A stretch of DNA of 54,477 nt from a bacterium (lineage in GTDB: Bacteria; Hydrothermota; UBA3073; JACQXS01). The stretch spans positions 1-54,477 of the forward strand of contig JAUWHX010000008.1 of the NCBI GenBank assembly GCA_030605695.1, given 5' to 3'. Below, one piece after another: positions 400-53,530 of the stretch. A model generated the notes under the pieces. That model did not search any database, was not told where the DNA came from, and saw only the letters and a program-made list of their open reading frames with translations. Each line of letters begins with the position of its first letter. Positions within the stretch are counted from its first letter, which is position 1. The position numbers were made by a program, and so were the translations under genes.

Positions 400-1053
400 T
401 TACGGCGAGACGGTAGCTTTAGCAACCATACTAAACAGCCCCGTCCGCATCTTCTTATCAAACCACTGCCCCCGATACTCCAGTGCCTCGACTAAATCAA
501 TATTGTGTCTATATGGACTATTCGTATCATCGCCAGCCCACTGCCACTCGCCATCCCCTACACGATACCAGATTTTCGCCCCAGCAATATCTTTCGGCTT
601 GGCATTCTCGCGTTCATTCCCCGGATTCACCCCAAAATGAACCGTAACCTGCCCAGGCCGTAAATCCAAAATCAAATTAGGCGGGTCTAATTCCTGCACA
701 TATTCTGGCGACAGCGGAGTGGGATTTCTATCCGGCACCGTAATATCAAGAAGGTCTCGATGAGCATCCGTGAGCTTCGGATTCGCCTGAAACATTCCCA
801 TCAATAATCTTGCCACACTTTTCACCACAGCACGTTTCTCATTCTTGGTCTCTGTCTTACTCTTCGCCGTAACCTGTGCAAGCTGGTGCGACTTATAAGC
901 AGCATCCCAATCCGCAATAGCTGATAATAGCTCATTAACCAGAGCTTGCGGAATCCCAATCGCAGTCGCTATAGCTGGCAGATTCTTCTTGAGATTCCGA
1001 AGCCACATATTAAACTCCGCATCCGCATACGGAATATAATCCTTTCTTGCCAT
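400..1053 (-). CDS. Conserved hypothetical protein (217 aa)
   Basis: Long ORF with coding-like composition; family not recognised. Confidence 0.65.
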   Translation of the reverse strand: MARKDYIPYADAEFNMWLRNLKKNLPAIATAIGIPQALVNELLSAIADWDAAYKSHQLAQVTAKSKTETKNEKRAVVKSVARLLMGMFQANPKLTDAHRDLLDITVPDRNPTPLSPEYVQELDPPNLILDLRPGQVTVHFGVNPGNERENAKPKDIAGAKIWYRVGDGEWQWAGDDTNSPYRHNIDLVEALEYRGQWFDKKMRTGLFSMVAKATVSP

Positions 1054-1191: not shown

Positions 1192-1443
1192 CCTCTTCCC
1201 GAACTCTGTTACTCATCAACTGACATCAGGTAATCATCTACTGAAGTCAGTAACCTTTCAACTGATATCAGGTAATTATCAACTAAAGTCAGTTAATTGT
1301 CAACTGATATCAGTAGATTATCTACTGAACTCTGTAGCTTGTCAACTGAATTCTGTATCTTTTTAACTGGTGTCAGTATCTTTTCTACTGAAGTCAGTTG
1401 CTCGTCAACTGATGTCAGTAACTTTTCAACGGAAGGCAATGAG
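1192..1443. repeat. 21-bp tandem array, 11 units plus one degenerate, each with an ACTGA-NN-TCAGT palindrome
   Basis: Units begin at 1213, 1234, 1255 ... 1423 with no indels; 4 perfect 5-2-5 palindromes (ACTGAAGTCAGT, ACTGATATCAGT, ACTGAAGTCAGT, ACTGATGTCAGT) and 6 with one mismatch. Confidence 0.9.
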
Positions 1444-32675: not shown

Positions 32676-33736
32676 AAAAGGTTGATAAAAGTATTCTTAT
32701 TATCACTCTTATTCTTGTCGGAATAGGACTTATAATGGTTTATTCAAGCTCAGCATTCTCATCATTGAGGTCAACTGATACATCGGTTTTTTTCCTACGC
32801 AAACATCTTATCCCATTGAGCATTGGCGTGGTTTTATTTATTGCGATGGTCAAGATTGATTATCATTTCTGGGGGAAGTGCTCTTATCTTATTTTATCAG
32901 CAACAACAGTCCTGCTTATAGGTGTTCTTATATTCGGTCCATCTGTTCATGGGGTTCAAAGATGGCTAAGGTTCGGCGGATTTTCTATTCAACCATCGGA
33001 AATTGCAAAACTCGGAGTAATAATATTTATAGCTGATTTCATTTCAAGAGAAGACCCCAAAAATCTTAAAAAAGGACTCCTGCCTGTACTCGGCGTAATT
33101 GCTACCATTGCCTTGCTTGTCGGTTTAGAACCTTCGTTCGGAGCTCTATCGGTTCTATGCCTCGTCTCTCTTGTCCTGCTGTTTTTGGGTGGAGCAAAAA
33201 TGTGGCATCTGCTCTTGCTACTCTTAATCGTTGGAGGACTCGGATTTGTTTCCGTCAATCAATTCCCTTATGCTAAAGCAAGAGTTTCTGGCTTCATTGC
33301 ACAAGAAGGATACCAACTCCATCAATCAATTTATGGAATAGGAGCTGGTGGAATATTTGGCAAGGGACTCGGTAATGGACAGGAAAAACTTTTGTTCTTG
33401 CCATACTCACACACAGATTTCATATTCTCAATTATTGGCGAAGAGCTTGGATTCATAGGATGTGCTGGAATCTCCATTTTGTTCTTTTTCTTATTAATAA
33501 AGGGTATAAAGATTGGAACTCATGCGGAAAGCCAATTTGGATTTTTGCTTGCTTGTGGCATTTCGCTTGTAATTTTTATAAGTGCTTGCTTCCATATAGG
33601 AGTTTCTTCTGGGCTACTACCTACCACTGGAATACCGCTTCCATTTATCTCGTTCGGAGGCTCAAATCTATTAACGAATCTTGCAGGCATTGGAATATTA
33701 TTGAATATAAGCAAAAGTAGTAATGGAGTTATATGA
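32672..33736 (+). CDS. ftsW: Lipid II polymerase/flippase FtsW (SEDS family)
   Basis: GVQRWLRFGGFSIQPSEIAKL, VGLEPSFGA, LPYSHTDFIFSIIGEELGFIG, LPTTGIPLPFISFGGSNLL. Confidence 0.97.
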   Translation: MKKVDKSILIITLILVGIGLIMVYSSSAFSSLRSTDTSVFFLRKHLIPLSIGVVLFIAMVKIDYHFWGKCSYLILSATTVLLIGVLIFGPSVHGVQRWLRFGGFSIQPSEIAKLGVIIFIADFISREDPKNLKKGLLPVLGVIATIALLVGLEPSFGALSVLCLVSLVLLFLGGAKMWHLLLLLLIVGGLGFVSVNQFPYAKARVSGFIAQEGYQLHQSIYGIGAGGIFGKGLGNGQEKLLFLPYSHTDFIFSIIGEELGFIGCAGISILFFFLLIKGIKIGTHAESQFGFLLACGISLVIFISACFHIGVSSGLLPTTGIPLPFISFGGSNLLTNLAGIGILLNISKSSNGVI

Positions 33737-33861
33737 ATGAGTTAGAGAGTTCTATGAGTTGTGGAGTTAGGGAGTTCCCTATGAAAGATGTAGAGTTCTA
33801 CATAAAAGACGTGGACATCCCCGGAAGAACGGGGGACATCCCTAAAGCAAATATGAGATGA
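33733..33861 (+). CDS. 42-aa mini-ORF made of a 21-bp palindromic array, ATGA-coupled to ftsW and murG
   Basis: MNELESSMSCGVREFPMKDVEFYIKDVDIPGRTGDIPKANMR*; start overlaps ftsW TGA, stop overlaps murG ATG. Confidence 0.6.
   Translation: MNELESSMSCGVREFPMKDVEFYIKDVDIPGRTGDIPKANMR
33769..33843. repeat. 21-bp-phased palindrome array, four units
   Basis: AGGGAGTTCCCT (33769), GTAGAGTTCTAC (33790), GTGGACATCCCC (33811), GGGGACATCCCT (33832): 5-2-5 palindromes at exactly 21-bp spacing. Confidence 0.85.
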
Positions 33862-34916
33862 AGATAATTATTGCAACTGGAGGCACAGGAGGACACATAT
33901 TTACAGGGCTTGCTATTGCTGAGGAATTGGATAATCTTGGAGTCAAGGTGCTAATCGTTGCTTCGAAATCCGCACTGCCGGATGCTATTATACAAAAACA
34001 ATATCCGCTCGAGATTACTTGCCAGCGTCCATTGCTTGGCAAAAACCTCAAACAGAAGCTTGCATTCCCTGTTTTCCTGGGGCTTTCATTATTTCAGTCT
34101 ATATATATAATAATGAGAGAAGCTCCAGATGGCGTAATCGGAACTGGTGGATTTGGCTCTTTCTCGCTTGTGTTTGTTGCTGCTTTCCTGCATATTCCCA
34201 CAATAATAACGGAAATCGATTCTGTCCCCGGACTTACTACAAAAATACTTTCAAGATTCGCTCACGAAATCTGGCTCGCTTTCCCTTCTGCCAAGAACAA
34301 ATTACCAGCTAAAAAAACAATCCTCGCTGGGGTCCCTGTTAGAAAGAAGATTACAAAACCTACTAAAACTATTAAGGATTTTGGACTATGTGATAACAAG
34401 CCTACTATATTTGTCTTCGGTGGCTCAAGAGGTGCGAGACATATAAATGAAGTCCTCGAGAAAGTTTTAGACCTCAAAATACTCCCAGATTTCCAATTTA
34501 TATGGCAAACCGGCGACTCACAACTCACAACTCGTAACTCAAAACTCCCAAATGTTTATATCACTAAATTTATTGATGATATAGAAAACGCTTATGCCAA
34601 TGCAGACCTCGTAGTCTCAAGAGCAGGTGCTTTAACCATTGGCGAGATTACAGCTATTGGTTTGCCCGCTATTTTCATTCCTTATCCTTATGCTACTGGG
34701 CAACACCAACTTTTAAATGCAAGAGCTTTGGAAAAAACGGGCGCTGCAAAAGTAATTTTAGATAAGGACTTAACCCCTGAACTCCTTGCAAAAGAAATAA
34801 AGAGGATAATCGAGGATAAAAAATTACAAACTAAGATGAAAACAGCTATGAAACAATTTAGTAACCCCGAAACAGCTAAACTAATAGCTAACAGAATGTT
34901 AGAACTATGCAACTAA
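33858..34916 (+). CDS. murG: UDP-GlcNAc transferase MurG
   Basis: IATGGTGGHIFTGLAIAEEL, VFGGSRGARHINE, VVSRAGALTIGEI, YPYATGQHQLLNARALEKTGAA. Confidence 0.97.
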   Translation: MKIIIATGGTGGHIFTGLAIAEELDNLGVKVLIVASKSALPDAIIQKQYPLEITCQRPLLGKNLKQKLAFPVFLGLSLFQSIYIIMREAPDGVIGTGGFGSFSLVFVAAFLHIPTIITEIDSVPGLTTKILSRFAHEIWLAFPSAKNKLPAKKTILAGVPVRKKITKPTKTIKDFGLCDNKPTIFVFGGSRGARHINEVLEKVLDLKILPDFQFIWQTGDSQLTTRNSKLPNVYITKFIDDIENAYANADLVVSRAGALTIGEITAIGLPAIFIPYPYATGQHQLLNARALEKTGAAKVILDKDLTPELLAKEIKRIIEDKKLQTKMKTAMKQFSNPETAKLIANRMLELCN

Positions 34917-52638: not shown

Positions 52639-53270
52639 TGATGCTATTTTTATTGACTTCCCCAGTGCTTGGTGACTCATTAAATTTGGAAACTGCTAAG
52701 CTAATAATCAACTCTCAGCACGATATGGCAATGTACGGCATAACGGTCGTGGTTGGACTATTTGCTTTATTATTGATTCTCTATTGGCTCCTGCAGATTC
52801 CTCTTGCTAATCGGAAGATAGACAATGCTATCAAGAATGAAATAACTGGTAAGGCATCAGAAGAATTCAAAAAGTATACTCAAGAACTTGATAAAAAACT
52901 CGAAGACAATAGTAAGAAAATGGATGAAAAAATGGAAGCACTGGACGACTACATGTTTTTGCTACATTCTGCAGAAACATCAAGGCTCCACGCTAATAAT
53001 GCTGAACTAAGAAAACTTTGGGATACTGCTGCTCTTTGGTGGTCGAGAGCTGTTAAATCTTACGCAGAGACTCATATACAGGAGAAACTATTAAGAGTTG
53101 CTGTAAATGGGCTTATGGGAAACCTCCAAAAGTGCGAAAAGCTTAACGAAAAAGGTAAAGAAGAAATAAAGGAGTGTCTTCCTGATATTCCAGACATCCT
53201 CTCAACAGAGAAAAGAAGTATTGAAAAAAAGTTAGATAAGTTACCAAATGAGGCACCGAAGAAATCGTAG
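52638..53270 (+). CDS. Hypothetical membrane-anchored coiled-coil protein inside the por operon
   Basis: TM GITVVVGLFALLLILYWLLQI then charged helical region; ATGA overlap with porA stop. Confidence 0.75.
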   Translation: MMLFLLTSPVLGDSLNLETAKLIINSQHDMAMYGITVVVGLFALLLILYWLLQIPLANRKIDNAIKNEITGKASEEFKKYTQELDKKLEDNSKKMDEKMEALDDYMFLLHSAETSRLHANNAELRKLWDTAALWWSRAVKSYAETHIQEKLLRVAVNGLMGNLQKCEKLNEKGKEEIKECLPDIPDILSTEKRSIEKKLDKLPNEAPKKS

Positions 53271-53275
53271 AGTAT

Positions 53276-53530
53276 ATGAATGAGTTAGAGAGTTCTATGA
53301 GTGACTCGGTAACATTACCGAATGACTTGGTAGCATTACCGAACCGATGGGGAACACTGCCGAACGACTCGGTAGCATTGCCGAATGAATGGGTAAGATT
53401 ACCGAACGGATGGGGAACATTCCCGAACGAGTGGGGAACATTACCGAATGGATGGGGAAGAGTACCGAATGACTTGGGAACCTTCCCGAACGAATTGGGA
53501 ATATATGGAGTGCAACAAGTAAAAGACTGA
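53276..53530 (+). CDS. 84-aa heptad-repeat mini-ORF made of a 21-bp palindromic array
   Basis: MNELESSMSDSVTLPNDLVALPNRWGTLPNDSVALPNEWVRLPNGWGTFPNEWG...; no disruption by stops. Confidence 0.5.
   Translation: MNELESSMSDSVTLPNDLVALPNRWGTLPNDSVALPNEWVRLPNGWGTFPNEWGTLPNGWGRVPNDLGTFPNELGIYGVQQVKD
53307..53509. repeat. 21-bp tandem array, 9 units plus one degenerate, with GGTAA-NN-TTACC / GGGAA-NN-TTCCC palindromes
   Basis: Units start at 53307, 53328, 53349 ... 53475 with no indels; perfect cores GGTAACATTACC, GGTAAGATTACC, GGGAACATTCCC, GGGAACCTTCCC. Confidence 0.92.

Follow-up and report, generated by a model that had tools for sequence, protein, structure and literature searches.

The window, by which we refer to the complete stretch of 54,477 nucleotides analysed here, is part of a MAG of the candidate division WOR-3 (G000) and contains the consecutive genes ftsW, which was named from its sequence and its operon context, and murG, whose closest matches are found in the WOR-3 MAG RS_17_16 (97% identity over 218 residues) and in the MAG CSMAG_437 (74%). 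Wedged between both genes is a short open reading frame of 42 codons on the forward strand (33733-33861) with the product MNELESSMSCGVREFPMKDVEFYIKDVDIPGRTGDIPKANMR*. As stated in a preliminary description of this DNA, this mini-ORF overlaps with its neighbours at either end, its ATG sharing an ATGA with the TGA of ftsW (33733-33736) and its own TGA sharing a second ATGA with the start codon of murG (33858-33861). The same description had proposed four palindromes of a 5-2-5 organization at an exact spacing of 21 bp, which are indeed found within the mini-ORF (Table 1), with 5, 5, 4 and 4 of the five arm pairs of successive units being of the Watson-Crick type, equivalent to 18/20. The first 36 nucleotides of the mini-ORF (33733-33768) are out of this 21-bp register and consist partly of GAGTTNNG units of about 8 bp. 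A recognisable Shine-Dalgarno sequence ahead of murG is found neither in G000 nor in its sister species G001; the mini-ORF is preceded by a GGAG motif. Since the independent MAG of the sister species likewise has an array of 21-bp units between ftsW and murG, the array is real and an assembly error was rejected as its origin.

Table 1. Coordinates of the ftsW-murG junction and of further arrays in the window.
Feature	Position	Strand	Remarks
Third 21-bp palindrome array, ACTGA-NN-TCAGT	1213..1434	-	no open frame
Period-7 arrays	11527, 13502, 13595, 31465 (murD), 37867 and 37967 (ftsZ region)		
ftsW, 354 aa	32672..33736	+	name from sequence and operon context
GGAG, Shine-Dalgarno-like	33725..33728	+	within the 3' end of ftsW, 4 nt ahead of the mini-ORF ATG; also found in G001
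Leader TATATGAATGAGTTAGAGAGTTCTATGAGT	33730..33759	+	identical copy at 53273-53302
Mini-ORF, 42 codons	33733..33861	+	ATGA overlaps with ftsW stop and murG start
Palindrome 1, AGGGA-GT-TCCCT	33769..33780	no strand	
Palindrome 2, GTAGA-GT-TCTAC	33790..33801	no strand	unit type shared with the array L042:15704-15875
Palindrome 3, GTGGA-CA-TCCCC	33811..33822	no strand	4/5 pairs
Palindrome 4, GGGGA-CA-TCCCT	33832..33843	no strand	4/5 pairs and one G-T
murG, 352 aa	33858..34916	+	no clear Shine-Dalgarno sequence ahead of the ATG
Second family member, 84-aa ORF	53276..53530	+	same leader; array of palindromic 21-bp units with LPN/NDS heptads; part of an oxidoreductase operon

The preference for a period of 21 is evident in 590 kb of G000, where runs of four 5-2-5 palindromes scoring at least 18/20 were detected seven times at this period, four times at its harmonic 42, twice at 16 and at none of the other periods tried, with shuffled sequence containing no such run at period 21. 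In the permutation test that follows, palindromes were scored unit by unit, consensus scoring hiding paired changes. The units of the mini-ORF contain 5.25 of 6 pairs compared to 3.04 in column-permuted versions (p=0.005), and significance (p<=0.05) is reached by the palindromes of 26 of 49 scored arrays, a set that takes in weakly palindromic ones; their sequences differ, a GA-NN-TC core often being present. Within units, the number of paired cells (1601) exceeds that of arm-shuffled controls (1565 +/- 9) in a test that is inflated by the kinship among units, and the arms of the palindromes thus change together. Such co-variation would also be obtained in the absence of selection by quasi-palindrome template switching, and the symmetry may reflect either selection or a mutational process that copies palindromes.

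The leader of the mini-ORF recurs without mismatch at the second position listed in Table 1, where it again starts an ORF composed of palindromic 21-bp units. Related leaders of the pattern M-N/K-D/E-L/S-x-x-S/G-M/V are present at many loci in three species, with 23 matches if register-shifted ones are included and none in a reversed control. Arrays with a period of 21 or multiples thereof were identified by TRF 25 times in 590 kb of G000 (about 42/Mb), three times in 176 kb of G001 and not at all in 256 kb of G002, a member of the same genus in which several arrays nevertheless surface by homology search; short diverged arrays such as the mini-ORF escape TRF, and the MAGs are incomplete (G000 84%, G001 61%). 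Most arrays in G000 have their own locus-specific palindrome. When 148 genomes of the phylum were searched at the protein level with the product of the 84-aa ORF, matches came only from G000, G001 and G002 and, weakly, from G003, which belongs to the same family. No match to the arrays was found in viral contigs or in phage and plasmid collections, and an origin from phages or plasmids was rejected on this ground. Similarly, Pfam and NCBIfam contain nothing above the cut-off for the mini-ORF and sub-threshold matches only for other array ORFs, and Rfam contains no match, which led us to reject a known RNA or protein family. A search of a literature library for tandem palindromes in WOR-3 yielded no paper.

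Several observations concern the genes and repeats in the vicinity of the arrays. Nine of 38 genes located downstream of arrays belong to a single family, many of them starting with MA(K/R)xxYIPxxDAEF, which includes the gene at 400-1053 (-) of the window. Members of a gene family of roughly 210-230 aa immediately precede arrays in two operons, at 52640-53270 (+) of the window and in L133 upstream of 15400; in the oxidoreductase operon of G002 the array and its upstream gene of about 210 aa are both absent. At L055, L109, L116 and L192, a common stretch ending in ACCTTTCCCACAAAGA is located just ahead of the array leaders and may constitute another dispersed element. Tandem arrays of period 7 occur at 142/Mb in G000 and 119/Mb in G001 and are rare in G002 (16/Mb). 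Their heptamers are varied, and some reside inside core genes. In murG of G000, an insertion built of AACTC-type heptamers follows the sequence FQFIWQTG (34510-34550); the same site holds a roughly 70-aa repetitive insert in G008 (L019), and 7-bp repeats are found in murG of G003 (L015). Judged from these sequences, this site appears to be a hotspot of repeat expansion within an essential enzyme.

The ftsW-murG junction was compared between relatives, as had been suggested in the preliminary description. In G001, an array ORF with an ATGA overlap with ftsW encodes a 74-aa peptide (MNELKRAMNEWGTSPNDSERVTNDSWRAT...) and ends in a TAA one nucleotide ahead of the murG ATG, the overlap on the murG side thus being absent. 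Despite a MurG that is 97% identical, this array (MNELKRAMNEWGTSPNDSERVTNDS...) is unlike the G000 copy: the ends of both can be aligned (GGGACATCCCC..., GGGACATCCCTNAAGCAAATAT), whereas the leader and the inner units differ. The junction in G002 is devoid of an array and FtsW contains a longer C-terminal tail reaching to one nucleotide before murG, which argues against an ancestral junction that was simply ATGA-coupled. In G003 we find a 14-bp array instead, and further members of the order contain short spacers or other sequence at this position and no 21-bp array. A protein conserved at the junction, which had been named as evidence against a cassette, is not found in the relatives. Taken from sequence, this distribution supports the presence of an interspersed element at ftsW-murG rather than of an ordinary conserved small gene. 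Conversely, the view of a single cassette with a precise ATGA-to-ATGA insertion had to be abandoned. A double overlap with spacings of -4/-4 is found in one of 30 arrays, the mini-ORF itself, and is thus a special case of the ftsW-murG copy; at least two G000 arrays lack any open frame, and the overlap at the start is largely derived from the leader (TATATGAATGA).

The array at the junction of G001 matches an array of G000 at the non-orthologous locus L188 with 85% identity over 199 nt, and the site in G001 that is orthologous to L188 consists of 264 bp of unaligned sequence. This match to a different locus indicates that arrays turn over and suggests that they probably move between loci. Ahead of a gene with the putative name gcvPA, G000 and G001 share the same leader (MNDLQRSM) and the same end, with palindrome arms that differ. 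Empty or near-empty sites, most of them defined by alignment coordinates only, were found between yebC and ruvC in G001, where 308 bp are missing and the alignments overlap by 8 bp, and in G002 at L188 (24 vs 226 bp), at two junctions of L194 (4 vs 131 bp and 21 vs 142 bp) and in the oxidoreductase operon (44 vs 898 bp, the latter including the extra 210-aa gene). An 8-bp direct repeat TTCATTTT (L044:2620-2627 and 2936-2943), which reads AAAATGAA on the sense strand and spans both start codons, that of the array ORF and that of ruvC, flanks the array that is missing from G001 and could by itself be a target duplication. This candidate was dropped as the start contexts at ten loci resemble one another no better than mismatched pairs do, a consistent target-site duplication not being found at these loci, and no array-associated transposase was identified.

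The arrays are oriented with respect to their flanking genes. The asymmetric linker (AANGA) points in the direction of these genes in 32 of 36 arrays (32:4, p=2e-6), a count that takes in some orthologous or related loci and thus positions that are not phylogenetically independent. An enrichment of arrays in co-directional spacers was not found (31/36 compared to 82% of gene pairs generally). Among 30 arrays between co-directional genes, 13 contain a bridging sense ORF that extends across the entire spacer, defined by a start at -12 to +20 nt from the upstream stop and an end at -25 to +30 nt from the next start, with gene starts set as longest ORFs. This number compares to 4 in antisense direction and to an expectation of 7.6 from column permutation; in the other 17 arrays a bridging ORF is missing. 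The total of 100 open frames compared to a column-permuted expectation of 90 does not reveal an excess that would prove coding, some arrays are closed in all six frames and several of the array matches in G002 contain in-frame stops (TAG, TAA). When adjacent units within 16 array ORFs are compared, the ratio of nonsynonymous to synonymous changes is lowest in the ORF frame (0.48-0.67, the range depending on transition bias; 0.85-1.41 in the two remaining sense frames), a weak signal on the amino-acid level from units that are paralogous, which is mirrored in one antisense frame sharing third positions. The proposal that the element preserves translational coupling thus fares differently for its parts, as it agrees with the orientation bias and the sense bridging ORFs but does not extend to arrays that cannot be translated.

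With moderate confidence, we favour a description of the arrays as an interspersed family of palindromic 21-bp minisatellites, whose leader and open units would keep operon ribosomes coupled. A member of this genus-level family consists of an ATG-bearing leader followed by tandem 21-bp units, each composed of a quasi-palindrome of about 14 bp and a 7-nt linker, typically AAYGACT. Copies would reach gene junctions by duplication or by a transposition-like transfer between loci and, once arrived, would rapidly expand, contract and homogenise. Within operons they would be tolerated mainly when ribosomes keep moving. There, the leader would place a start codon at or just past the upstream stop, the length of 21 bp, corresponding to 7 codons, would allow the frame to survive any gain or loss of units, and the stop of the array ORF would be close to the start of the next gene. 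At the junction described here, ribosomes finishing ftsW would start on the mini-ORF from GGAG...ATGA and, after finishing at the second ATGA, would re-initiate on murG, which has no Shine-Dalgarno sequence of its own. A more far-reaching version, which we put forward tentatively, regards the element as a self-spreading palindromic minisatellite serving as its own translational adaptor, which would jump or convert between operon junctions, dock its start on the upstream stop, maintain a 7-codon frame and renew its palindromes by the copying of arms, so that an essential operon like that of ftsW and murG would be read through a fast-changing and functionally empty peptide.

Rather less probable than the favoured reading appears a neutral non-coding palindromic minisatellite, in which slippage would expand the 21-bp units and template switching copy the arms, with open frames being incidental and without role in coupling. 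It would readily account for the co-variation of arms, for a number of open frames close to the permuted expectation, for arrays without open frame and for the in-frame stops in G002, and it would fit a genome in which other short tandem arrays abound (of period 7, but also of 8 and 14). It does not explain why the arrays are oriented with genes, why the start codon of the leader is conserved, why bridging ORFs are more frequent in sense than in antisense direction and why the nonsynonymous ratio is lowest in the frame of the ORF.

We consider it improbable that the arrays are regulatory elements of RNA or DNA, either as tandem hairpins stabilising or punctuating the operon mRNA or as helically phased dyads bound by a protein, 21 bp corresponding to two turns. 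Paired changes that preserve palindromes across arrays of differing sequence and an arrangement following the direction of transcription would be compatible with such a role, and the RNA of the mini-ORF folds slightly better than shuffled versions; however, its z-score of -1.9 and another of -1.5 are both modest, Rfam contains no match and close relatives have junctions without arrays. Moreover, the palindrome differs in most arrays, which disfavours a single sequence-specific binder. Finally, the view of the mini-ORF as an ordinary gene for a small protein within the division and cell-wall operon, with a conserved function of its 42-aa product, is very hard to reconcile with the data, as the complete ORF coupled at both ends and the weakly visible amino-acid-level constraint across array ORFs are outweighed by the very different 74-aa repeat peptide of the sister species, on which basis a conserved small protein was rejected, by the lack of the peptide in other relatives and by the absence of Pfam or NCBIfam matches.

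The favoured reading of an interspersed, translationally coupled minisatellite invites comparison with known repeat systems. Mycobacterial interspersed repetitive units (MIRUs), as reviewed in PMC12548453, appear mobile and insert at start codons, with an ORF that is coupled to the gene by a spacing of -4 nt. This picture comes near to the cassette proposed in the preliminary description. The WOR-3 arrays resemble MIRUs in their interspersion in many operons, their large number and their presence or absence between relatives. A partial likeness is seen in their prevailing orientation with the flanking genes and in the short ORF, which in the best cases has ATGA overlaps to its neighbours that would minimise the effect of an insertion on the downstream gene. 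In contrast, the hosts are from unrelated phyla, the WOR-3 unit of 21 bp is palindromic with a palindrome specific to each locus, and coupling at both ends is occasional rather than the rule, in a comparison that rests on descriptions of MIRUs. With a length of about 46-101 bp, the MIRU unit is described without dyad symmetry. We thus do not regard the WOR-3 arrays as MIRUs, because unit length and symmetry disagree and coupling is not universal. Rickettsia palindromic elements (RPEs) and comparable in-frame palindromes are likewise dispersed repeats compatible with translation. RPEs occur singly within genes and measure about 100-150 bp, whereas the WOR-3 palindromes form 21-bp tandem arrays in intergenic spacers.

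Repeats of the heptamer TAACTGA have been described in Beggiatoaceae, Cyanobacteria and Bacteroidetes (PMC4679880). Like the cyanobacterial STRRs, these are intergenic direct repeats found in many operons and often just ahead of start codons, and G000 is likewise rich in 7-bp arrays; they do, however, consist of one fixed, non-palindromic heptamer, in contrast to the palindromic and locus-specific 21-bp units of WOR-3. BOX and REP/BIME elements are intergenic, symmetric and variable in copy number. They constitute conserved sequence families with defined modules, whereas the WOR-3 arrays share a leader and a layout but not the palindrome. A REP/BIME system with an associated Y1-transposase (RAYT) does not agree with the arrays, which have no conserved palindrome, and the single Y1_Tnp gene of the genome resides on another contig. 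The units are degenerate, contiguous and without the spacers of a CRISPR array.

If the favoured reading is correct, translationally coupled repeats resembling MIRUs would have originated a separate time in an uncultured phylum, and their palindromic construction would be quite different. Translational coupling would then be a general route for the entry of repeats into essential operons, and it would account for hypervariable mini-ORFs between conserved genes, which are discarded by annotation pipelines. The comparison of the two sister species offers a tractable case for the replacement of arrays between loci.
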